A stretch of DNA of 64,000 bases. Source: Phycisphaerales bacterium. Its GTDB lineage: Bacteria > Planctomycetota > Phycisphaerae > Phycisphaerales > UBA1924. Shown here in pieces: positions 54,692 to 64,000 of the stretch. The notes below the pieces were generated by a model. The model worked only from the letters and a program-made list of their open reading frames with translations. It searched no databases and had not been told where the DNA came from. Positions within the stretch are counted from its first letter, which is position 1; the number at the start of each line of letters is the position of its first letter. Made by a program: the position numbers and the translations under genes. The stretch spans positions 1-64,000 of the forward strand of contig JALHNL010000003.1 of assembly GCA_022843545.1 (NCBI GenBank), written 5' to 3'.

Positions 54692-55544
54692 GTGTCTTGC
54701 ACAACGACGACGCATATCGCCGACCAGCATAATTGCCGTGTGCGCTCGCTTTACACGCCATGCGGTCGTGTGTAGAGCTGCGAACCACCGACCATGCTCG
54801 ATTTGACCCGACAGCACCTCGGGGCTCGGCACAGGTGAGCTGCTGCGGAATGGTCGCATCCGGTTGGGTTGTCACTTCGGCCCTGCACTGCATGTTGTCA
54901 GAACGCCCCCGATCCGCTGGGAGGCATCACTGAGCGGAGCGGAGTGCCGGATCCGTCGCCGTCGCGCGTCAAACCGCTCTATTGCAGGAGTAGGTGCAGC
55001 CAACGTCCGAGATGGTGTGACAGATCATGGGATCTGGAGTTGAAGGCCTGCGTGGCGGCAAACCGGGCTCCGTTGTCTGCAGAGTCCGAGATCTCGTGGC
55101 GTGAACAGCGATTCGTCACAGAAGTAGTGTTCTGACGACATCGAGCACGAAACTCTGTCAACGCATCTATTCCGCGCTTGAACTCCAAGCAGCAGGCCGC
55201 GTAGTGTGATGCACGGGTCTGCTCTCCCCACGCACGGCGTGGCGGGTGCAGAACCAGACCTCGCGGCGAAGGGGCACGATGCTCCGACAGCTGCCGGCCC
55301 GCATCTCTTGCGGGCGTCCTAACCCCGGAGGCACGGCTTCCGGGCGAAACCCAGGCATGGCTTGGGCTGGGATCCAGACACAGCAGCACAACTGAGTCAG
55401 TCGTGCCGTCGCGATCTTGATCGCTGGCTCATCGCGTGCTCGCGGTGTGCTGGCGCTCCAGCGTCGGGTCGGCGTTCCCGTCCGCACGCGATGCCGCGGC
55501 CGCTTCGACGCGATCGATCCGGCGCCGGCGATTGGAGACCGTCC
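54692..55544. other. Intergenic stretch at the left flank of the phage-like genes
   Basis: About 850 bases without a credible gene. A small hairpin GCCCGCA/TGCGGGC (55297-55315) is present. No tRNA or clear att repeat is seen, but this gap is where a left end of the mobile element would be expected. Confidence 0.45.
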
Positions 55545-56954
55545 ATGGATCCGAACATCTATCTCAACAGTCCCGACCTGCCCCCGAAGCTGCCGCAAGG
55601 CACGCAGGTGCAGCTCATCCCGATCGAGCGCATCAACCCCGCGCCGTACAACCCGCGCGTCGACCTCAAGCCCGGCGATCCGGCGTACGACAAGCTCGTC
55701 AAGAGCATCGCCGAGTTCGGCCTCGTCGAGCCGCTGGTGTGGAACCAGCGCAGTGGGCATCTCGTCGGGGGCCACCAGCGGCTGAAGATCCTTCGCGATC
55801 GCGGCGACGAGACCGTTCCGGTCGTCGTCGTGGATCTATCGTCGCAGAAGGAGCGTGCCCTCAACCTCGCCCTCAACAAGATTCAGGGCGACTGGGACGA
55901 GACCAGGCTCGCCGAGGTGCTCCAGCACTTGATGCTGACGCCGCACCTCGATTGGGATATCACCGGCTTCGAGTTCGACGAGGCCAAGGACATCATCGCC
56001 GAGGTGCTCGCCGACTCAGAGGAAGAAGCCGAGGAGGATTTCGACGAAGAGCAGGAGCTGGCGAAGGCCGCGGCGCAGCCGACCGTCACCCAGCCCGGCG
56101 ACCTCATCCTCCTGGGCACCGATCCCGCCCGCCAGCACCGGCTGCTCTGCGGCGACAGCACCAACCCCGAGCACGTGCGCCGTCTCATGGACGGCCAGCG
56201 GGCGGCGCTCTTCGCCACCGATCCGCCGTACCTGGTCGACTACGACGGCACTAACCACCCCGGGGCCAAGGCGGGCGTGAAGAACAAGGACTGGTCGGGC
56301 ACCTACGGCGTGACCTGGGACGACGCAGACGCCAACAGCGATCTCTACGACCGCTTCATCGCGACCGCGGTGGCCGAGGCGATCGCGCCGAATGCCGCGT
56401 GGTACTGCTGGCATGCTTCGCGGCGCCAGGCGATGCTCGAGGCGGCGTGGAATCGCCACGGTGCGTTCGTGCACTGCCAGATCATCTGGGCCAAGAACCG
56501 CCCGGTGCTCACGCGGACGTGGTACGCCTGGCAGCACGAGCCGTGCCTGATGGGCTGGATCCGCGGCAACCTGCCCCACCGCGCCGACGAGTCGCGGCTC
56601 TCCACGGTCTGGTCGATCGACACCATCCCCAACGGCGACCAGCGCCCCGACCACCCCACGCCCAAGCCGCTGGAGGTCTTCGAGATCCCGATGCGGCAGC
56701 ACACCAGGCCCGGCGAGGTCTGCTACGAGCCCTTCGCCGGCAGTGGCACGCAGATCATCGCGGCACAGCGGCTGCGGCGGCGTTGTTTCGCGATCGAGAT
56801 CTCGCCGGTCTACTGCGACCTCATCGTGCGGCGGTTCATCAAGCTGGCCGGCGAGGACTCGGTGACGCCAGAGATCGCGGAGCGATACCGCGTGCGCGAG
56901 GCACCCACACAGATGGTTGAGACGGCTGCTCAACCCACGGAGGGCGGGCAGTGA
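55545..56954 (+). CDS. ParB-like nuclease/DNA methyltransferase fusion (phage type)
   Basis: A 469-residue two-domain protein. The N-terminal ParB/sulfiredoxin-like domain has IERINPAPYNPR, KLVKSIAEFGLVEPLVW and LVGGHQRLKILRD. An acidic linker (EEEAEEDFDEEQEL) leads to an N4/N6 DNA methyltransferase domain with the catalytic DPPY in ATDPPYLVDYDG and the SAM motif FAGSGTQIIAAQRL near the end, so the order is that of beta-class amino-methyltransferases. Such fusions are common in prophages beside terminase genes. The ATG at 55545 opens MDPNIYLNSPDL. It overlaps the next gene by 4 bases. Confidence 0.9.
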   Translation: MDPNIYLNSPDLPPKLPQGTQVQLIPIERINPAPYNPRVDLKPGDPAYDKLVKSIAEFGLVEPLVWNQRSGHLVGGHQRLKILRDRGDETVPVVVVDLSSQKERALNLALNKIQGDWDETRLAEVLQHLMLTPHLDWDITGFEFDEAKDIIAEVLADSEEEAEEDFDEEQELAKAAAQPTVTQPGDLILLGTDPARQHRLLCGDSTNPEHVRRLMDGQRAALFATDPPYLVDYDGTNHPGAKAGVKNKDWSGTYGVTWDDADANSDLYDRFIATAVAEAIAPNAAWYCWHASRRQAMLEAAWNRHGAFVHCQIIWAKNRPVLTRTWYAWQHEPCLMGWIRGNLPHRADESRLSTVWSIDTIPNGDQRPDHPTPKPLEVFEIPMRQHTRPGEVCYEPFAGSGTQIIAAQRLRRRCFAIEISPVYCDLIVRRFIKLAGEDSVTPEIAERYRVREAPTQMVETAAQPTEGGQ

Positions 56955-57793
56955 GTGAACGCCACGACCCATTGATCCCAGAGGAGCAAGGCGGCGGCGT
57001 TGAGCAAACGCCGCCGCCTCGCGCGCAGAGGCCAGATGTCGAACCCGAAGAACCAGTCGAGACCGACCACACGACGGTGCTCGACATCCTCCGCGCTATC
57101 AAGTCGGTTCAAATCAACCCGCGCAACGTCCACCCCGACGACCGGCGGCTGTGCGTGGCCCATCTCGTGGGCGAAGGGTTGTCGGTCTCCGAGGTGGCAC
57201 AGGTGCTGCGGATCAGCGTGCGCACGGTTGCCCGTGACCGCCGGGCGATCAACGAGGAGAACGCGATCCAGCCCGACGCACGGCTGGCCGGCCTGTACGC
57301 GGGCCGGCTCGCCGCGGAGGCCGAGGCGACGATCGGCCGCATCCGCCGCGTCACCCGCGACAAGGACACGCCGCACGCGGTCAAGATCGACGGCGAGTTC
57401 AAGTGCTTTGACATCCTCGACCGCTTCGTGCAGCGCATGCAATCCATGGGCTATCTGCCAACGGCCGCGCACCGGATCCAGGCAGATCTGACCCACAACA
57501 CCGCCGATCTGAGCAGCCTCGCGGAGCTCAAGGCCGAGCTCACCCGGCTCGAGTCCATCGACACCGAGTGCCGGGTCATCGAGTCGGATGGCATCGACGA
57601 CGCTATGGGTGACGCGTCCGAAGACGACCTTCCTGCTCACGCCGGAGAGCATTCCGCACTGAGGGGTCCGGCCGGTGCTCCCATGCCTCGAGCCCAGACA
57701 CGCGTTGAACGCGAGCGGCTGGAGGAGCAGGATCTCAAGCGACGCATTGAAGAGAAGTGGAGGACCAAGAAGCCCGATGTCCAAAACCTCTGA
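56951..57793 (+). CDS. Phage-type HTH protein, possible small terminase
   Basis: A 280-residue protein. Around residues 74-98, GLSVSEVAQVLRISVRTVARD is a clear helix-turn-helix. The middle (ERERLEEQDLKRR at the end, and long helical parts before it) is coiled-coil-like, and an acidic patch follows. Its place between a ParB-methyltransferase and the large terminase fits a DNA-recognising small terminase, but no family match can be claimed. It overlaps the terminase start by 17 bases. Confidence 0.6.
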   Translation: MSERHDPLIPEEQGGGVEQTPPPRAQRPDVEPEEPVETDHTTVLDILRAIKSVQINPRNVHPDDRRLCVAHLVGEGLSVSEVAQVLRISVRTVARDRRAINEENAIQPDARLAGLYAGRLAAEAEATIGRIRRVTRDKDTPHAVKIDGEFKCFDILDRFVQRMQSMGYLPTAAHRIQADLTHNTADLSSLAELKAELTRLESIDTECRVIESDGIDDAMGDASEDDLPAHAGEHSALRGPAGAPMPRAQTRVERERLEEQDLKRRIEEKWRTKKPDVQNL

Positions 57794-59381
57794 CACCCTC
57801 GTCGGCGTGCGGACGGCGCTCTCGCTTCACCGACGGACGCTCGCGTCGCAATCGCCGCGTGCGTTCGCCAAGGTGTACCTCGCGCGTCACTTCCGCTTGA
57901 AGCCTTCGCGCATGCACGAGGGGGTCTTCGAGCTGCTGGGTCAGGCCACCCACGAGCGCTCGAAGCGCCTAGCCATCGCCGCGCCGCGCGGCCACGCCAA
58001 GAGCACCGTCGTCAGCCTTGCCTACGTGCTCTGGTCGGCGCTGTACCGGCACGAGCCACTGATCCTGCTGGTGTCCGCCACCCGCGAGCAAGCCGTGCAG
58101 CTGCTCAAGAACGTCAAGGACGAGATCCAGGGCAACGAGCTCCTGCTGGAAGACTTCCCGGAGGTCTGCTCACGACCGGGCGAGGGCCGCACGCCCAAGC
58201 CGTGGCGCGACAACAACATCCTCCTCCGCAACGGCGTGATGATCCGTGCCCTCGGCAGCGGCCAGGGTCTCCGCGGCGTGCGCCACGGGGCCAGCAGGCC
58301 CAGCCTGATTATCGGTGACGACCTTGAGAACCAGGAGCAGTGCGAGTCGCCCGAGCAGCGCGCCAAGATGCGCGACTGGTTCGAGAAGACGCTGCTCAAG
58401 GCCGGCGACGGGCGCACCAACGTGGTGGTCGTCGGCACCGTCCTCCACTACGACTCGCTTCTGGCCACGCTGGTCAACCCCGTCCGCGGCAAGGGTTCGG
58501 GCTGGGACAGCCGCGTGTACCGCGCCGTCGAGTCCTTCAGCGAGCGTGCGGACCTCTGGGACCGCTGGGAGTCGATCCGAGTCGGCGAGACCGAGCACGA
58601 CGGCCGGCGCGGCCCCGAGGCGTCATCGGCGTTCTTCGATGCGAACAGACAGGAGATGCTCCGCGGTACGCGCGTGCTCTGGCCCGAGATGGAGGACTAC
58701 CACCGGCTCATGCAGATCCGCGTCGACGAAGGTCGGCTGAGCTTCCAATCCGAGAAGCAGAACGAGCCGCTCGACCCCGAGCAGTGCCTCTTCTCATCGG
58801 CATCGTTCCGCTACTGGGACGACGAGAGCTCTGACCCTTCGGATCCCGCGGCTCTGCTCCGCCGGCTCGGCCCGCACACCCGCATCTACGGCGCCTGCGA
58901 CCCCAGCCTCGGCCGGCACGTCGGCCGCGGCGACTACACCGCGATCATCACCGTGGCCAAGGACACCAGGGACGACTCGATCTACATCCTCGACGCCGAC
59001 ATCGCGCGCCGCAAGCCCGAGCAGACCATCGAGCGCATCCTCGCGCTGGCGGGCGTGTACCGCTACGACGACTTCATCGTCGAGGCCAACCAGTTCCAGG
59101 AGATCATGGTCCGCCAGCTCGAGCACCTCGCCCGCACCCGTGGGGTGCGCCTCTACCCCCGCGCGGTGAACAACACCGCTAACAAGCAGGCCCGGGTGGA
59201 GGGCCTCGAACCGCTGATCAGCTCCGGCCGCCTCAAGTTCAGCCGCCGGCAATCCACGCTGCTGGACCAGCTCCGCCACTTCCCCCTCGGCGCCCACGAC
59301 GACGGCCCCGACGCCCTCGAGATCGTCGTCACCCGCGCCGTCGAACGCCGCACGGCGAAGTTCGGGCGGTACGTGATGTGA
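57777..59381 (+). CDS. Phage terminase large subunit
   Basis: The motor/nuclease that packages phage DNA. The 534-residue protein shows an adenine-site and Walker A region AIAAPRGHAKSTVVSLAY, Walker B-like LIIGDDLENQEQ and motif III-type VVVVGTVLHYDSLL. The C-terminal RNase H-like nuclease has GACDPSLGRHVGRGDYTAI, FIVEANQFQEIMV and a final HDDGPDALEI, which carry the metal-binding acids. The ATG at 57777 overlaps the HTH gene. No portal or capsid gene lies within the window, so this is part of a prophage, gene transfer agent or remnant. Confidence 0.9.
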   Translation: MSKTSDTLVGVRTALSLHRRTLASQSPRAFAKVYLARHFRLKPSRMHEGVFELLGQATHERSKRLAIAAPRGHAKSTVVSLAYVLWSALYRHEPLILLVSATREQAVQLLKNVKDEIQGNELLLEDFPEVCSRPGEGRTPKPWRDNNILLRNGVMIRALGSGQGLRGVRHGASRPSLIIGDDLENQEQCESPEQRAKMRDWFEKTLLKAGDGRTNVVVVGTVLHYDSLLATLVNPVRGKGSGWDSRVYRAVESFSERADLWDRWESIRVGETEHDGRRGPEASSAFFDANRQEMLRGTRVLWPEMEDYHRLMQIRVDEGRLSFQSEKQNEPLDPEQCLFSSASFRYWDDESSDPSDPAALLRRLGPHTRIYGACDPSLGRHVGRGDYTAIITVAKDTRDDSIYILDADIARRKPEQTIERILALAGVYRYDDFIVEANQFQEIMVRQLEHLARTRGVRLYPRAVNNTANKQARVEGLEPLISSGRLKFSRRQSTLLDQLRHFPLGAHDDGPDALEIVVTRAVERRTAKFGRYVM

Positions 59382-59453: not shown

Positions 59454-60497
59454 TCACCTTCGCGTGATGAGGGCGATCACCTTGTCGACATGCCGGCGGG
59501 CCTCGACCACCACGTCGCCGTCCCCGATGGGGCCGCCACCCGAGGTGGTCCAATCTCTGAGGGACTCGACGCTTCGTAGAGTAACGCCCGCATCCGTGAC
59601 GGACGGGTCGCTGAGACGGGCGATCACCGAAGTCTGAGGTACGCGCATATTCAAGTGAAACCGAAGTCCCGCGCTTCGGGCAAGTTCATTGCCTCCGGCA
59701 GCAAGCACACGCAGCGCCGGCTGAGGCTTGAGCTCGGGGAACAGGCCCGGCGAGCTGGTCATGTCACGCTCACCCTTCTTCAAGCCCAAGCCCGCTTCGA
59801 TGGTCACCGCTTGCACCGGCGCCCGTGTGGCAACGGCGATGAGTGTCGCGTGGAAACTTGCCCGCGGGCAATCCGATGCACGGATCTGCTCGACGACGTC
59901 AAAGTTCAATCCCCCGGCCCGTTCGACGGCCTTTCGCACGACAGGCGCGAACAGATCATCGAAGAACCCCACTTCAGCGGCGATCTTGTCCATCAGTTGC
60001 TCGATCGGGTCACGGTTGACCGTGGACCGATGAAAGGGCAAGGCCATCTGGCCCCTGACGAGAGTGAGGACGTGAGCGATCTCGTGCCACCGTGTAAAGA
60101 AACGGCGGGCCGCTTTGTCACCACGGCAGTCAATAATCGCGACGAACTGATCGAGACATGAGGGCGTCGCGTTCTCTCGGCGGATTAGCGTCGCAAAGGT
60201 CTCGGGCCCGAAACCGTCGCGCTGTGCGGCAAAGACGTACTCGCCTTTCGCCACGTACTTGGCGATGACCGCGTCGAGCTCGTCATCAGAGCTGAACTCC
60301 TCGATCACCAATCGCAGTTTCTTGCGCACGAGTGCCTCGAGGTCGTCGAGCGTTCGGACATTGGGGGCGCCGGAGAGCCATCCGGCGATCCGCTGTTTGC
60401 AGAACTCGATAATGGCCTCGGTGGGCACTTCGCGCCAATCGAGCCCGAGATCGGCCGCCATCTGGATCACTTTTTGATCGCGGTCGATGACGCTCAT
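59454..60497 (-). CDS. CapP-like ImmA/IrrE-family metallopeptidase
   Basis: A 347-residue protein with a gluzincin site: HEIAH at about residues 138-142 (TRWHEIAHVLTL) and a third ligand candidate Glu in KIAAEVGFFDDLF (about 175). The remaining C-terminal part resembles the sensor half of such proteins. In CBASS loci, CapP of this family cleaves the repressor CapH after a DNA-damage signal. The overlap of 4 bases with the HTH gene and the placement beside a CBASS-type operon fit that role, which is inferred here. Confidence 0.82.
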   Translation of the reverse strand: MSVIDRDQKVIQMAADLGLDWREVPTEAIIEFCKQRIAGWLSGAPNVRTLDDLEALVRKKLRLVIEEFSSDDELDAVIAKYVAKGEYVFAAQRDGFGPETFATLIRRENATPSCLDQFVAIIDCRGDKAARRFFTRWHEIAHVLTLVRGQMALPFHRSTVNRDPIEQLMDKIAAEVGFFDDLFAPVVRKAVERAGGLNFDVVEQIRASDCPRASFHATLIAVATRAPVQAVTIEAGLGLKKGERDMTSSPGLFPELKPQPALRVLAAGGNELARSAGLRFHLNMRVPQTSVIARLSDPSVTDAGVTLRSVESLRDWTTSGGGPIGDGDVVVEARRHVDKVIALITRR

Positions 60498-60895
60498 AGG
60501 AACCCCTTCACCGACTCGTAGAACTTTCGCCAGTCGAAGTTGTCCCCCGGGCTGCGGTCGTTGGCGCTTCGATGCGCGAGTATCTGCTGCCGCATCTTCA
60601 GCAGCATCAAGACCTTGCGGAACCCCAATCCTTCCTGGCTGGCGAACTCCGCAAGAGACGAGGGGATCTCAATGTCCTTGGGAGTTGGCTGCTCGGCTTC
60701 GTCCCCAGTCATCAGATAGTCGAGCGTGACCCCAAGCACCCGCGCGAGGTCGAGGAGCTTCTCGGCGCTGATCCCGCGCTTGCCGTTCTCAAGATCCGAC
60801 AGGAATCCCTTGCTGATGCCGGCCTTCTGGCCCAAGACGTCCTGCGTCCATTCGAGCTCTTCACGCCGCGTTTTGATCCGTGCACCGAGTTCCAT
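60494..60895 (-). CDS. CapH-like XRE-family repressor
   Basis: A 133-residue protein with an N-terminal XRE helix-turn-helix (RIKTRREELEWTQDVLGQKA, GISKGFLSDLENGKRGIS) and a helical C-terminal half that may dimerise. It precedes and overlaps the ImmA-like peptidase gene and diverges from the CBASS-type operon, as CapH does in CapH-CapP controlled systems. The ATG at 60895 is used: the first part of the longer frame lies over the promoter. It would repress both divergent promoters. Confidence 0.85.
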   Translation of the reverse strand: MELGARIKTRREELEWTQDVLGQKAGISKGFLSDLENGKRGISAEKLLDLARVLGVTLDYLMTGDEAEQPTPKDIEIPSSLAEFASQEGLGFRKVLMLLKMRQQILAHRSANDRSPGDNFDWRKFYESVKGFL

Positions 60896-60950
60896 GCCCT
60901 GCTCCTTGACCCTGGCCACGGCCTTGTGGGAAGGGGGACGACGGTACGAG

Positions 60951-60979
60951 ATTGTACCACATCGGTCAAGATCGGTCAT
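60951..60979 (-). promoter_or_regulatory. Promoter of the CapH/CapP-like pair with direct repeats
   Basis: On the minus strand, ATGACC (60974-60979), 17 bases, TACAAT (60951-60956). The direct repeat ATCGGTCA occurs at 60961-60968 and 60971-60978, between the boxes, and is a candidate operator for the XRE protein. Confidence 0.5.
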
Positions 60980-61019
60980 TTGACATCACTGACAGCGAAC
61001 ATATCATGTATAGCGAACA
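60980..61019 (+). promoter_or_regulatory. Promoter of the CBASS-type operon with repeats at the -10 box
   Basis: TTGACA at 60980-60985, 16 bases, TATCAT at 61002-61007. The 8-base repeat AGCGAACA occurs at 60994-61001 and 61012-61019, on both sides of the -10 box. The -35 box abuts the -35 of the divergent promoter, so one bound repressor could close both. Confidence 0.6.
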
Positions 61020-61068: not shown

Positions 61069-62202
61069 ATGTCGACGATCACCGCGTCTGCGAATCCCAC
61101 GGTCGATGGCCTCGTTGAGGCAGTCACGGTCATGCTTCAGCTCCCGCCGTCGCTCGAGCAACAGGCCCGGGAGCGCGCGGCAGGCGTCGCCGAATGGCTC
61201 AACTCCCCGGGCACACTCCTCGCGCGGTATGCCCCGGAAATCCATGATCAGGGGTCGATGCGGCACGGGACCACCGTCCACCCCAAGCACTACACCGAGT
61301 ACGACCTCGACCTGGTTTGCCTCCTGCGCCTGCTTGGCGCGGACAACTTGATGACGCCCGACGAACTCTACGAGCTGGTCTATCAGCGCCTCCACGAGAG
61401 CCCGGTGTACCGGCCCCTCCTCAAGCGGATGAACCGCTGCATCAGACTTGTCTACGCGAACGATTTTCATCTCGACATTCTCCCGGCCCGGCCCGACTGG
61501 ACGCGTGGTGGCACCTGTGTGCTCGTGCCCGACCGAGAGCGCCGCTGCTGGAAGCCCAGCAATCCGAAGGGCTTTGCTGAGTGGTTCGACCGTCAGGCCA
61601 CCAGCGGTGGCCGGGTGATGGAACGCTACCTCGGTAGGGTCGTCACCGCGTCCGATCGGCTTCAGATGAAGGCGACTCTGCGGCGGGTCGTGCAGCTGAT
61701 GAAGCGTCGGCGCGACATCCGTTTCGACGGCGATCAGTCGTGCGCGCGCTCGGTGGTCTTGACGACGCTGGCGGGTGCCGACTACGACGGGCAGCTCCTC
61801 TGCACCGACGCCCTGATCTCCGTACTCGACGCCATCATCGATGCCTTTGGTGGTCATATCGATCCGCCGCCCGTGCTCAACCCGACCAACCCCGACGAGA
61901 ACTTTGCCGAGAAATGGACACGCAAGACCTTTGCCCAGTTCATGGAGTATGTGCGTGTGTTCCGGTATGAGATGGAGGAACTCCTCGACTTGCACGACCT
62001 GGAGGAGATCCACGCCAAGCTCAAGGCGATGTTCGGCGAGGGCGTCGCGACCGACGTGGTCAAGGAACTCGGCGGGCGGATGCGCGCCGCCAAGAACCAG
62101 CGAGCACTGCGGTGGACGGGTCCAGCCGTCTCGCTCACCGCCGCTCCGATCGCAGAGGCCAGGACAATCCCAGCGAACACCTTTCATGGCGACCATGTTT
62201 GA
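61069..62202 (+). CDS. CD-NTase (CBASS cyclic oligonucleotide synthase), first of two
   Basis: A 377-residue nucleotidyltransferase of the cGAS/DncV-like family. The catalytic block is G-S at about residues 62-63 followed by MRHGTTVHPKHYTEYDLDLV, with acids at 79 and 81; the third Asp is at 136 in FHLDILPA. The family uses these to make cyclic di- or trinucleotides after phage infection. It is the first gene of the operon; an ATG at 61069 follows GGAGGA. The region after 200 is helical, as in the family. All three active-site acids are present, so the enzyme should be active. Confidence 0.9.
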   Translation: MSTITASANPTVDGLVEAVTVMLQLPPSLEQQARERAAGVAEWLNSPGTLLARYAPEIHDQGSMRHGTTVHPKHYTEYDLDLVCLLRLLGADNLMTPDELYELVYQRLHESPVYRPLLKRMNRCIRLVYANDFHLDILPARPDWTRGGTCVLVPDRERRCWKPSNPKGFAEWFDRQATSGGRVMERYLGRVVTASDRLQMKATLRRVVQLMKRRRDIRFDGDQSCARSVVLTTLAGADYDGQLLCTDALISVLDAIIDAFGGHIDPPPVLNPTNPDENFAEKWTRKTFAQFMEYVRVFRYEMEELLDLHDLEEIHAKLKAMFGEGVATDVVKELGGRMRAAKNQRALRWTGPAVSLTAAPIAEARTIPANTFHGDHV

Positions 62203-62641
62203 ACGAATCCGCACGATCGGTGTCCACGAGCAGCTCGCGCTGATGCGGCTTCTGCACCCGCAGTTCCGCACCACCGTGCAGGAAGGTGTTCTCCTTTGCC
62301 GCGGAGCGATAAGGCCGACTTCCCTGAACCGCACCTACTTGGTCCGCGTCGAATACCGGGCCCCCGAGGCGCCGCTTTCCTTCGTAGACGATCCGCCGCT
62401 CCGCCGTCGAAACCAGGACGAGCGCATCCCTCACACTTACGCGGGGGACCGACCTTGTCTCTACCTGCCCGGAGTGAACGAATGGCGATCAGACAAGCGC
62501 ATCGCCCAGACCATCATCCCGTGGCTCTCCGAATGGCTCTTCTACTACGAGGTGTGGCGTGCAACGGGTGAATGGATGGGAGGGGGAGTCCATCCGACCG
62601 GGCCGCGGGAACCACGCGGACGCACCAGGGAGGTGGCATGA
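62186..62641 (+). CDS. Stand-alone E2-like protein of CBASS type
   Basis: A 151-residue protein like the short ubiquitin-conjugating-E2-like partners of CBASS. Conserved features are RTYLVRVEY, IPHTYAGDRPCLYLPG with the candidate catalytic Cys at about residue 91, and IAQTIIPWLSEWLFYYEVW followed by GEWMGGGVHP. In type II CBASS such proteins link or prime the CD-NTase; here no E1 and no JAB gene is seen in the window. It overlaps the CD-NTase by 17 bases and the next gene by 4, so production is tightly coupled. An ATG at 62195 is an alternative start. Confidence 0.82.
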   Translation: MATMFERIRTIGVHEQLALMRLLHPQFRTTVQEGVLLCRGAIRPTSLNRTYLVRVEYRAPEAPLSFVDDPPLRRRNQDERIPHTYAGDRPCLYLPGVNEWRSDKRIAQTIIPWLSEWLFYYEVWRATGEWMGGGVHPTGPREPRGRTREVA

Positions 62642-63396
62642 GCGGGCATAACTACTTAGCGTCTCTGTTGGCGGCCCAGAACCTCGACGACCGGGAGTTG
62701 CAGCCGCTCCGCAACGCCCGCGACGCGATCGAGCAGTGGCTCCGCGGCGAAATCGGTTCCGCACCCCGGATCTACTACGGGGGGTCCTTCGCCAAGGGCA
62801 CGATGCTCCGCGCCTCGTATGACCTGGACATCGTGGTCTACTTCCCATCCACGGACGCCAGGACGCTTCAGCAGTTGTTCACAGGCGTGCATCAGCGGCT
62901 GCTGGCCGGGAACCTGATCGTGCACCCGCGAACCGTCGCGCTCCGCCTTCCCTACGAGGGCGGCTTTCACATCGATATCGTCCCGGGGCGTGCTCAGGAT
63001 TCATCGTTTCGCTACGCCACGCTCTACAAGAACACGACGCCTCCGAGCACGCTCCAGACCAGCCTCAAGGTCCACATCGACGCGGTGAAGGACGCCGAGT
63101 TGAGCGAGGTGGTGCGCATCGCCAAGCTCTGGCGCCTGCGTCACGGCCTCGACGTATCCACGTTCGCGCTCGAGCTCGCGGTCGACCGCGCAATGCAGGG
63201 CGTGCGACGCGACGATCTGGGCACGGCGTTCTGGACCGTGCTGGGCTACCTCGCAGGCGAGTTCACTACGGCTCGTCTCGTCGACCCCGCCAACACGAAC
63301 AATGTCATCGAAGTGTCTCAAAGCACTCGGAATGTGGTCGCGGCGGGTGCGCAGCATTCCCGCGAGCAGAAGAACTGGTCAACGATCGTTTGGTAG
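62638..63396 (+). CDS. Second CD-NTase-fold nucleotidyltransferase
   Basis: A 252-residue enzyme with an independent complete active site: G49-S50 in YYGGSFAKGTMLRASYDLD, acids at about 62 and 64, and a third Asp at about 113 in FHIDIVPG. It is distinct in sequence from the first CD-NTase and shorter, closer to OAS/CCA-like minimal nucleotidyltransferases with a helical C-terminal domain (VVRIAKLWRLRHGLDVSTFALE). Two complete NTases in one operon is unusual for CBASS. It may make a second signal, modify tRNA or protein, or act on the same substrate. ATGA overlap with the E2 gene. Confidence 0.82.
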   Translation: MSGHNYLASLLAAQNLDDRELQPLRNARDAIEQWLRGEIGSAPRIYYGGSFAKGTMLRASYDLDIVVYFPSTDARTLQQLFTGVHQRLLAGNLIVHPRTVALRLPYEGGFHIDIVPGRAQDSSFRYATLYKNTTPPSTLQTSLKVHIDAVKDAELSEVVRIAKLWRLRHGLDVSTFALELAVDRAMQGVRRDDLGTAFWTVLGYLAGEFTTARLVDPANTNNVIEVSQSTRNVVAAGAQHSREQKNWSTIVW

Positions 63397-63408
63397 CCGG
63401 GAGACCCC

Positions 63409-64000
63409 ATGCCCACGAGCATCCTCATCGTCCGTCATGCCGGTCCGTGGCCCGTCCCAGCCACCGCGATCGCGCCGGCGATCCCTGCACCGTTGAACGC
63501 GCTGCACCGCGAGGATTTCGAGGTGAACACGGAGCCTTTCAACGCCCAGATCGAGCAGGGTGATTGGAGTGGGCAAAGTCGGTTCCTCGCGGAAAGGGCC
63601 AGCGAGATCCACGCCAAGATGGCTCTGCTCACGGGTGCCGAACTGCATTACTTCGGTCTGGCCGAAGTGCCCCACGTGATTGCTATGGGCGCGTACCTCG
63701 GCGATGAGATTCCCATCGAGCTCCACGATTTCGACCGCGACGCCAAGTCGTGGGCCTGGCCAGAGTCAAAACGGACACTCGAAGCACGGGTGCTTGGGCT
63801 TCCGTCTGGCGACCCTATCCCCGCGGAGGGCTCTGTCGTCCTGCGCGTCGAGATCTCGTTCGCAATCTCCGACGAGGACGTGCATGACGCGGCCGGGGCC
63901 AAGCATCTCGCCGAGGTTCGGGTCACCCTGCGCGAAGGGCTTAACCCGGCGATCTGCAAGGTGCGGTCCCCAGCCGATGTCCAGGAGGTGCGCCTGCGCA
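63409..64000 (+). CDS. SAVED-domain protein (3' end outside window)
   Basis: The frame opens at an ATG 12 bases after the previous stop and runs without stop to the window edge (197 codons). From about residue 75 it resembles the SAVED cyclic-nucleotide sensor: LHYFGLAEVPHVIAMGAYLGDEIPIELHDFDRDAKSWAWP is the typical alpha/beta opening with P-x-x-x-A-x-x-x-G and a following acidic strand. The first 60 residues are short and carry no recognised effector domain, so an effector would have to lie beyond the edge or in another gene. It is the likely receptor for the operon's nucleotide signal. Confidence 0.65.
   Translation, partial: MPTSILIVRHAGPWPVPATAIAPAIPAPLNALHREDFEVNTEPFNAQIEQGDWSGQSRFLAERASEIHAKMALLTGAELHYFGLAEVPHVIAMGAYLGDEIPIELHDFDRDAKSWAWPESKRTLEARVLGLPSGDPIPAEGSVVLRVEISFAISDEDVHDAAGAKHLAEVRVTLREGLNPAICKVRSPADVQEVRLR

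Follow-up and report, generated by a model that had tools for sequence, protein, structure and literature searches.

Why should a bacterial antiphage operon carry two complete nucleotide cyclases? In the usual account, a CBASS (cyclic oligonucleotide-based antiphage signaling system) consists of a single cyclase, a single signal and a single effector; most CBASS operons pair one synthase with one Cap gene, according to a review (PMC10419184), and a four-gene type II operon has one cyclase (PMC11153139). We examined a stretch of 64,000 nucleotides from a Phycisphaerales bacterium of the Planctomycetota (assembly GCA_022843545.1, contig JALHNL010000003.1, here C3, positions 1 to 64,000), hereafter called the window, at whose right end four genes encode, in this order, a CD-NTase (cGAS/DncV-like nucleotidyltransferase; NTase1), an E2-like protein, a second CD-NTase (NTase2) and a SAVED protein. 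The original prediction, made from the letters of the window, proposed a CBASS operon with two complete nucleotidyltransferases, a lone E2 and a SAVED protein, and PADLOC and Pfam matches far above chance bear this out. The gene coordinates were also correct, with the NTase1 and E2 genes overlapping by 17 bases, the E2 and NTase2 genes by 4 bases (ATGA), and a gap of 12 bases before the SAVED gene, and both NTases indeed possess all catalytic acids, i.e., the G-S motif and the three aspartates of CD-NTases. The operon thus unites, as expected of CBASS, CD-NTases with an intact catalytic motif (two of two) and a SAVED sensor effector. Similar cyclase pairings in unrelated bacteria suggest that the arrangement is not accidental but an alarm with two inputs.

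Judged by homology, NTase1 and the E2 are an ordinary short type II module related to CdnG-E2. NTase1 matches the PADLOC model PDLC00780 (1.7e-80); its best match in the PDB is 9woo (2.7e-36), named only as a cyclic GMP-AMP synthase, and the nearest named structures, SmCdnG (8hsb_A, 2e-30) and 7ljn_A (1e-16), are both CdnG, which places it in the CdnG clade. The E2 matches PDLC00864 (6.7e-43) and 8hsb_B (1.1e-21), the very E2 that was solved with SmCdnG, and its Cys91 is aligned in all 14 E2 sequences examined. No Pfam match to E1/ThiF was found in the ten genes scanned, from the CapP-like gene through JetD. An E2 with a catalytic cysteine and no E1 is characteristic of short type II systems, which have a single CD-NTase per operon; since two are present here, we file the locus as a short type II variant and not as a plain member. 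NTase1 ends in IPANTFHGDHV, a tail of the E2-linked kind predicted to serve conjugation; the tails of its counterparts in locus L029 and in the plasmid systems L069-L074 read VPSNTYFGD, VRTNTFYGQ, VRANTFFGR, VRGNTFFGDPR, VPRNNFFGK, VPTNTFFGD and VRSNTFFGD. These six plasmid systems were hand-picked among 134 plasmid records, and each of them, with its single NTase1-E2 pair, has an effector of its own (6/6). PDLC00780 matches occurred in 4 of the 12 genomes behind the loci, those in G470 and G473 not being among the ones read. At G246:C112:89040-92330, an NTase1-type match falls into two parts approximately 2 kb apart, perhaps interrupted by an insertion.

NTase2 belongs to a different clade. 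It matches PDLC00803 over the full model (1-253 of 253, 8.4e-61), and PADLOC thus already lists its family among the CBASS cyclases. Its sole sequence match in the PDB up to 0.001 is CdnC (6e-8), and its AlphaFold model (predicted local distance difference test, pLDDT, 95) has the CD-NTase fold, with CdnC 6u7b as the top Foldseek match (4.1e-13). VIA-align, in turn, ranked CdnB (Z 24.0), CdnG, CdnD and DncV at least as high as CdnC (Z 21.8); since the two methods rank the clades differently, the product of NTase2 is not callable from its fold. We scanned 84,980 GTDB species, each represented by one genome, with a pattern-based search that misses divergent sequences, and obtained 41 NTase2 relatives among 93 candidate stretches. 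A SAVED gene lies in the fetched neighborhood of 36 of the 41, in 33 of them at most 300 bases from NTase2, and an E2 or E1-E2 was detected by phmmer in 26. When 37 CD-NTases served as queries, CD-NTase-like reading frames were single in 35 loci, represented one broken gene in two pieces in three (L061, L066, L068) and comprised two CD-NTases in the remaining three. The commonest layout is HNH-SAVED, NTase2 and an E2 with a SEC-C-like zinc motif, which pattern matching detected in 23 of the 28 tailed loci described below; in four loci (L030, L033, L035, L036), no E2 was found beside SAVED and NTase2. This synteny, together with the two-CD-NTase layout in 3/41, led us to reject the idea that NTase2 is merely an unrelated neighbor, one of the outcomes that could have overturned the original prediction. 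A degraded copy was rejected too, since its catalytic residues are complete and invariant in all 27 rows of our alignment A3, as was a duplicate of NTase1, to which it shows 32% identity over just 87 amino acids. One distant plasmid relative (L009) among the 37 aligned CD-NTases lacks two catalytic aspartates. No NTase2 relative was found in viral contigs at the sensitivity of the search tool.

Comparison of the C-termini indicates which cyclase the E2 serves. PMC10097602 describes, for E1-E2 systems, that the type II cyclase is conjugated via its C terminus and that a C-terminal glycine is needed. We took as tail length the number of residues that follow the DPAN motif, after setting apart the broken L061 and L068, which have no tail value, and L034, L037 and L064, which bear a long C-terminal extension or fused domain; these five relatives thus fall outside both tail classes. 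The tail is 64-80 amino acids long in 28/41 relatives, among which the likewise broken L066 was kept, and 27 of the 28 adjoin an E2 (24 by phmmer; L040, L043 and L056 by eye), L066 being the sole long-tailed relative for which no E2 was found. Within the last ten residues, 17 of the 27 unbroken long-tailed relatives have [RK]PW. A tail of 32-36 amino acids is present in eight relatives, six of them without an E2 and the other two being the dual loci L028 and L029. With 33 amino acids, NTase2 of the window lacks the tail of about 70 residues found in relatives that have their own E2. Given the E2-linked tail on NTase1 and none on NTase2, we infer that NTase1, and not NTase2, is what the E2 acts upon. 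Comparing tails in this way yields a simple rule, open to testing, to tell which cyclase is the target of an E2. In another locus (L079:9283-10278), a DncV-like NTase without E1 or E2 lacks the C-terminal tail that its Calothrix counterpart has; tail and conjugation genes may have been lost there together.

A second CD-NTase of another clade occurs in 3 of the 41 NTase2 loci, from three phyla including that of the window. In Anaeromyxobacter oryzisoli (L029) the order is NTase1, E2, HNH-SAVED and NTase2; in Calothrix (L028) it is a DncV-like NTase1, E1-E2, JAB and NTase2, with a SAVED-phosphorylase on the opposite strand; and a planctomycete (L064, on the same contig as L079) has SAVED, NTase2 with an AGS_C domain and a DncV-like NTase, with no E2 found. 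NTase1 of L029 is 37% identical to that of the window, the E2 40% and NTase2 48%, and the tree pairs the two loci by their NTase1 (support 0.73) as well as by their NTase2 (support 0.79). Among 392 Planctomycetota genomes, PDLC00803 matches occur in 12 (at 1e-10) and PDLC00780 matches in 19 (at 1e-6); both lie close together in two genomes, that of the window (G000) and G119. Among 244 genomes of the Calothrix phylum, PDLC00803 matches four (Calothrix, G797, G716 and G737), of which the first two were read. In the phylum of Anaeromyxobacter, which we take to be Myxococcota, 2 of 195 genomes have two PDLC00780 matches within 10 kb, i.e., G468 (L029) and G605 (L077), the latter with CHAT-SAVED, a DncV-like NTase, E1-E2, JAB and a second CD-NTase bearing AGS_C. 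Plasmids of Roseovarius sp. THAF9 (L075) and Jannaschia sp. M317 (L076) carry two complete CBASS operons back to back, the first comprising NTase, E1-E2, JAB and HNH-SAVED and the second a further nucleotidyltransferase and a further SAVED gene; in L075 this second cyclase has AGS_C and the second SAVED gene is a 2TM-SAVED. AGS_C is hence found on one of the two cyclases in L064, L075 and L077. The catalytic residues are kept in all 12 NTases of the six loci inspected (the window, L028, L029, L075, L077, L079). Three CD-NTase-like genes are clustered on one strand in L082 (G361) and L080 (G161), where phmmer found no SAVED.

The SAVED gene, which the original prediction had presented as a SAVED-like sensor, does have the SAVED domain (residues 72-259); it is, however, cut by the end of the window. 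Contig C3 extends to 81,318 bases, so that the right flank is readable, and there the gene proved to encode an effector with HExxH (residues 394-398) in a peptidase-like C-terminal half. The full protein matches Pfam SAVED (5.6e-36) and the PADLOC models PDLC00754 Peptidase (2e-86) and PDLC02018 SAVED_peptidaseM48 (9.4e-35); its peptidase half has no Pfam peptidase match. HEYLH followed by DYxADxYA is kept in both sequences compared, those of the window and L055, and the second motif presumably resembles the M48 zinc motif. A structural model of the L055 peptidase half was too poor (pLDDT mostly <50) to resolve a fold. The L055 effector, from a locus with a tailed NTase2 and a SEC-C E2, is the nearest relative of the window effector (41% over 597 amino acids). 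The L029 effector, labeled SAVED_HNH by PADLOC, shares about 50% identity with its counterparts in the NTase2 systems L041, L049, L054 and L039, and 31% with that of the NTase1-type L070. Hence, in both NTase1-E2 dual loci (the window and L029), the kin of the effector appear to belong with NTase2-type systems. PDLC00754 matches 8 of the 392 Planctomycetota genomes, with most of the model covered only in that of the window and partial matches in the other seven. The peptidase half had no match in plasmids and none in viral contigs at the search tool's sensitivity, and a further search of 149 genomes of one class turned up only the genome of L055 itself.

The four genes are preceded by two divergent regulatory genes (Table 1). 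The assignment of the CapP-like protein is weak: its PADLOC capP score is only 0.0079, and neither Pfam (up to 0.1) nor NCBIfam (up to 0.01) yielded a match. Counterparts of the pair adjoin NTase2-type CBASS in the same divergent position in L039 and L054, with identities of 32-41% (three pairs measured; 32-37% for the CapP-like homologs), and an annotated pair of this helix-turn-helix (HTH) and ImmA/IrrE-like kind also accompanies the NTase1-E2 modules of the plasmid systems L070 and L074. Promoter-like sites number two in a region of 4.7 kb (0.9 expected in shuffles). The search found no terminator-like site in the operon, between the NTases or elsewhere (2.7 expected in shuffles).

Table 1. 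Features of the two-cyclase locus and its control region (window positions unless marked C3; aa, amino acids)
Feature	Position	Strand	Description
ImmA/IrrE-like (CapP-like) regulator	59454-60497	-	347 aa; HEIAH motif; weak assignment
HTH repressor-like gene (CapH-like)	60494-60979	-	161 aa; PADLOC capH 3e-13; Pfam HTH_3 1.9e-15
Candidate promoter TTGACA-16-TATCAT	60980-61007		Between the regulators and NTase1; consensus match only
17-nucleotide imperfect direct repeat	60985-61001 / 61003-61019		Overlaps the candidate promoter; possible repressor site
NTase1	61069-62202	+	377 aa; CdnG-like CD-NTase; G62-S63, D79/D81/D136
NTase1 C-terminal tail IPANTFHGDHV	62167-62199	+	Codons overlap the E2 start
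E2	62186-62641	+	151 aa; short type II without E1; Cys91 codon 62456-62458
NTase2	62638-63396	+	252 aa; tail-less CD-NTase of the PDLC00803 clade; D62/D64/D113
SAVED effector	63409-64000 inside the window	+	Full gene to C3:65211; 600 aa

Directly to the right of the effector gene lies a complete Wadjet operon, JetA-JetB-JetC-JetD (L002:5420-12092, i.e., C3:65420-72092), and the two together are a defense island. To the left of the regulators (55362-59381), the genes encode a fusion of a ParB-like protein with a DNA methyltransferase, a small protein and the large subunit of a terminase (PHROG 5.8e-107).

How might two cyclases and one effector work together? We favor, with about even confidence for and against, the view that the locus is a composite two-input CBASS. 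Its core pair would be the tail-less NTase2 and the SAVED-metallopeptidase-like effector: NTase2 would make a cyclic nucleotide, the SAVED half would bind it, and the peptidase half would then kill or arrest the infected cell. The E2 would link NTase1, via its NTFxG-like tail, to partners or to itself and so tune it, while NTase1 would make a second nucleotide converging on the same effector. The two cyclases could thus provide two triggers, or two signal chemistries that are hard for a single phage sponge or nuclease to remove, and the divergent HTH/ImmA-IrrE-like pair probably controls their expression. That NTase2 is the source of a second signal, as the original prediction had offered, is therefore a plausible part of this scheme; nothing was found here in favor of its other suggestions, a hetero-complex or the modification of a target by NTase2. 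The composite reading draws on what was observed of gene content, catalytic residues, clades, tails, recurrence and effector kin. Further, DS-2, a system in which mutation of the second cyclase abolished defense (see below), indicates that a two-cyclase CBASS can be one working system.

Several findings weigh against this composite reading. The tree supports are modest, the dual loci make up only 3 of the 41 GTDB loci, and two of these, L028 and L064, have a DncV-like NTase1 type and other effectors. NTase2 is rare among the window's own relatives (4 of 101 genomes, including its own). A single close relative ties the window effector to NTase2-type systems, and the comparison included no more than four HNH-SAVED effectors of NTase1 or E1-E2 type (L070, L072, L075, L076). 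Moreover, the model of the L055 SAVED domain ranks nearest to Cap5 and also Cap14, both cyclic dinucleotide binders, with Cap4 lower. Cap5 is a SAVED-HNH nuclease (PMC10419184) for which VcCdnG makes 3'2'-cGAMP (PMC12804361); since CdnG is known to work with Cap5 and the SAVED model is Cap5-like, NTase1 could by itself suffice to drive the effector. Both the effector kinship and the Cap5 likeness are compatible with convergence of two signals on one effector.

Alternatively, the cyclases may be coupled, the E2-conjugated NTase1 gating NTase2 or the effector, be it as an AND gate, as a guard or through an NTase1 conjugate on NTase2. NTase1-E2 would then have replaced the job that the tail and the SEC-C E2 perform in the three-gene relatives. 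We consider this a tentative possibility, slightly raised by the DS-2 result.

It is rather unlikely that the modules are nested without cooperation, so that a type I CBASS (NTase2 and SAVED) landed in or beside a short type II CBASS that lost its own effector, leaving NTase1-E2 as a departing passenger. Defense islands shuffle modules, a Wadjet operon adjoins the locus, CBASS operons stand back to back in L075 and L076, and each of the six fetched single NTase1-E2 systems has an effector of its own. However, both NTases are intact, the genes overlap by 17 and 4 bases, no terminator-like site was found between the NTases, and the same NTase1-E2-NTase2 set recurs with one effector, in a different order, in L029 of another phylum. 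That the published DS-2 needs its second cyclase lowered our estimate for this explanation a little further.

We regard as unlikely, too, a scheme of opposed signals, in which NTase1-E2 drives a Cap5-like SAVED effector and a decoy or antagonist nucleotide from NTase2 restrains it until that nucleotide is taken away by a phage sponge or nuclease. Such a scheme would suit a SAVED model nearest to Cap5, a CdnG-like NTase1 and an NTase2 devoid of a regulated tail, as a constantly active enzyme might be, and Panoptes is a precedent for decoy nucleotides (PMC12657218). Yet the NTase2 clade provides the only CD-NTase-like gene in 35 of 41 loci, mostly beside a SAVED effector, and activation is hence its default role. 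Finally, although some relatives adjoin DUF4145 HEPN-like or DUF6602 genes without SAVED (L031, L032, L008, L010, L011, L080), it is highly improbable that NTase2 is a transferase adding nucleotides to protein or RNA, e.g., to NTase1 or the effector, given its full-length match to a CBASS cyclase model, CdnC as the nearest Foldseek structure and SAVED in 36 of 41 loci.

Some of these relatives deserve a separate mention. In L031:4362-5773 and L032:159-1597, the NTase2 relative overlaps a HEPN-like gene (DUF4145, checked in L031) and no SAVED was found. An NTase2-like gene stands beside a DUF6602 gene in L008, L010, L011 and L013, from Pseudomonadota, Bacillota and one genome of the window's phylum, and the plasmid relatives L008, L010 and L011 form a tree branch separate from the other NTase2 relatives. 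Possibly, NTase2-like and DUF6602 genes constitute a two-gene system outside CBASS.

How, then, does the locus compare with known systems? The original prediction knew of no described system with its composition. This holds in part: no two-CD-NTase CBASS was found in the open-licence literature, which is weak evidence since most subscription papers were outside the search, but the pairing of a lone E2 with NTase1 is ordinary and the NTase2 family is listed in PADLOC. Both halves of the locus are thus known, and PADLOC has labels for the effector class; what is new is the combination of two CD-NTases, an E2 fitting only one of them and a single effector. The Serratia marcescens CdnG-E2 (PDB 8hsb/8yjy) is the closest solved relative of the module, NTase1 and the E2 being homologous to its two chains, and the plasmid systems L069-L074 share the NTase1-E2 order and the NTFxG-like tail. 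Unlike these short type II CdnG-E2 systems, the window has a CD-NTase of another clade between the E2 and the effector, and the effector is of another lineage. The CBASS composed of SAVED, a PDLC00803 cyclase and E2(SEC-C) (L041, L049, L055) has the same NTase2 family and, in L055, the same SAVED-peptidase effector, whereas the window NTase2 lacks the tail, and NTase1-E2 stands in place of the SEC-C E2. The Anaeromyxobacter oryzisoli locus L029, for which we found no published description as far as we searched, is alike in having NTase1-E2, one SAVED effector and a tail-less NTase2, but its effector is an HNH-SAVED placed before NTase2.

Panoptes (mCpol with its S-2TM-beta partner), in which a nucleotide-making enzyme keeps the effector in check, is relevant to the opposed-signal scheme only. 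Its enzyme belongs to a family other than the CD-NTases of the window, and to our knowledge it has neither a SAVED effector nor an E2. A further system for comparison is DS-2 from DefensePredictor. As reported in PMC13092281, it consists of three genes, for a phospholipase, a cGAS-like CD-NTase and a diadenylate cyclase; mutation of the diadenylate cyclase eliminated defense, and the authors suggest a CBASS type with two different cyclase genes. Like the window, DS-2 thus has two different cyclase genes and one effector in one CBASS; unlike it, the second enzyme is a diadenylate cyclase and not a CD-NTase, the effector is a phospholipase and not a SAVED-peptidase, and the three genes named include no E2. 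DS-2 is hence a precedent for the two-cyclase idea with a different second enzyme and, if our composite reading is true, the two systems together would mean that two inputs, or two signal chemistries, can be integrated within one CBASS, answering phage nucleotide sponges and cutters.

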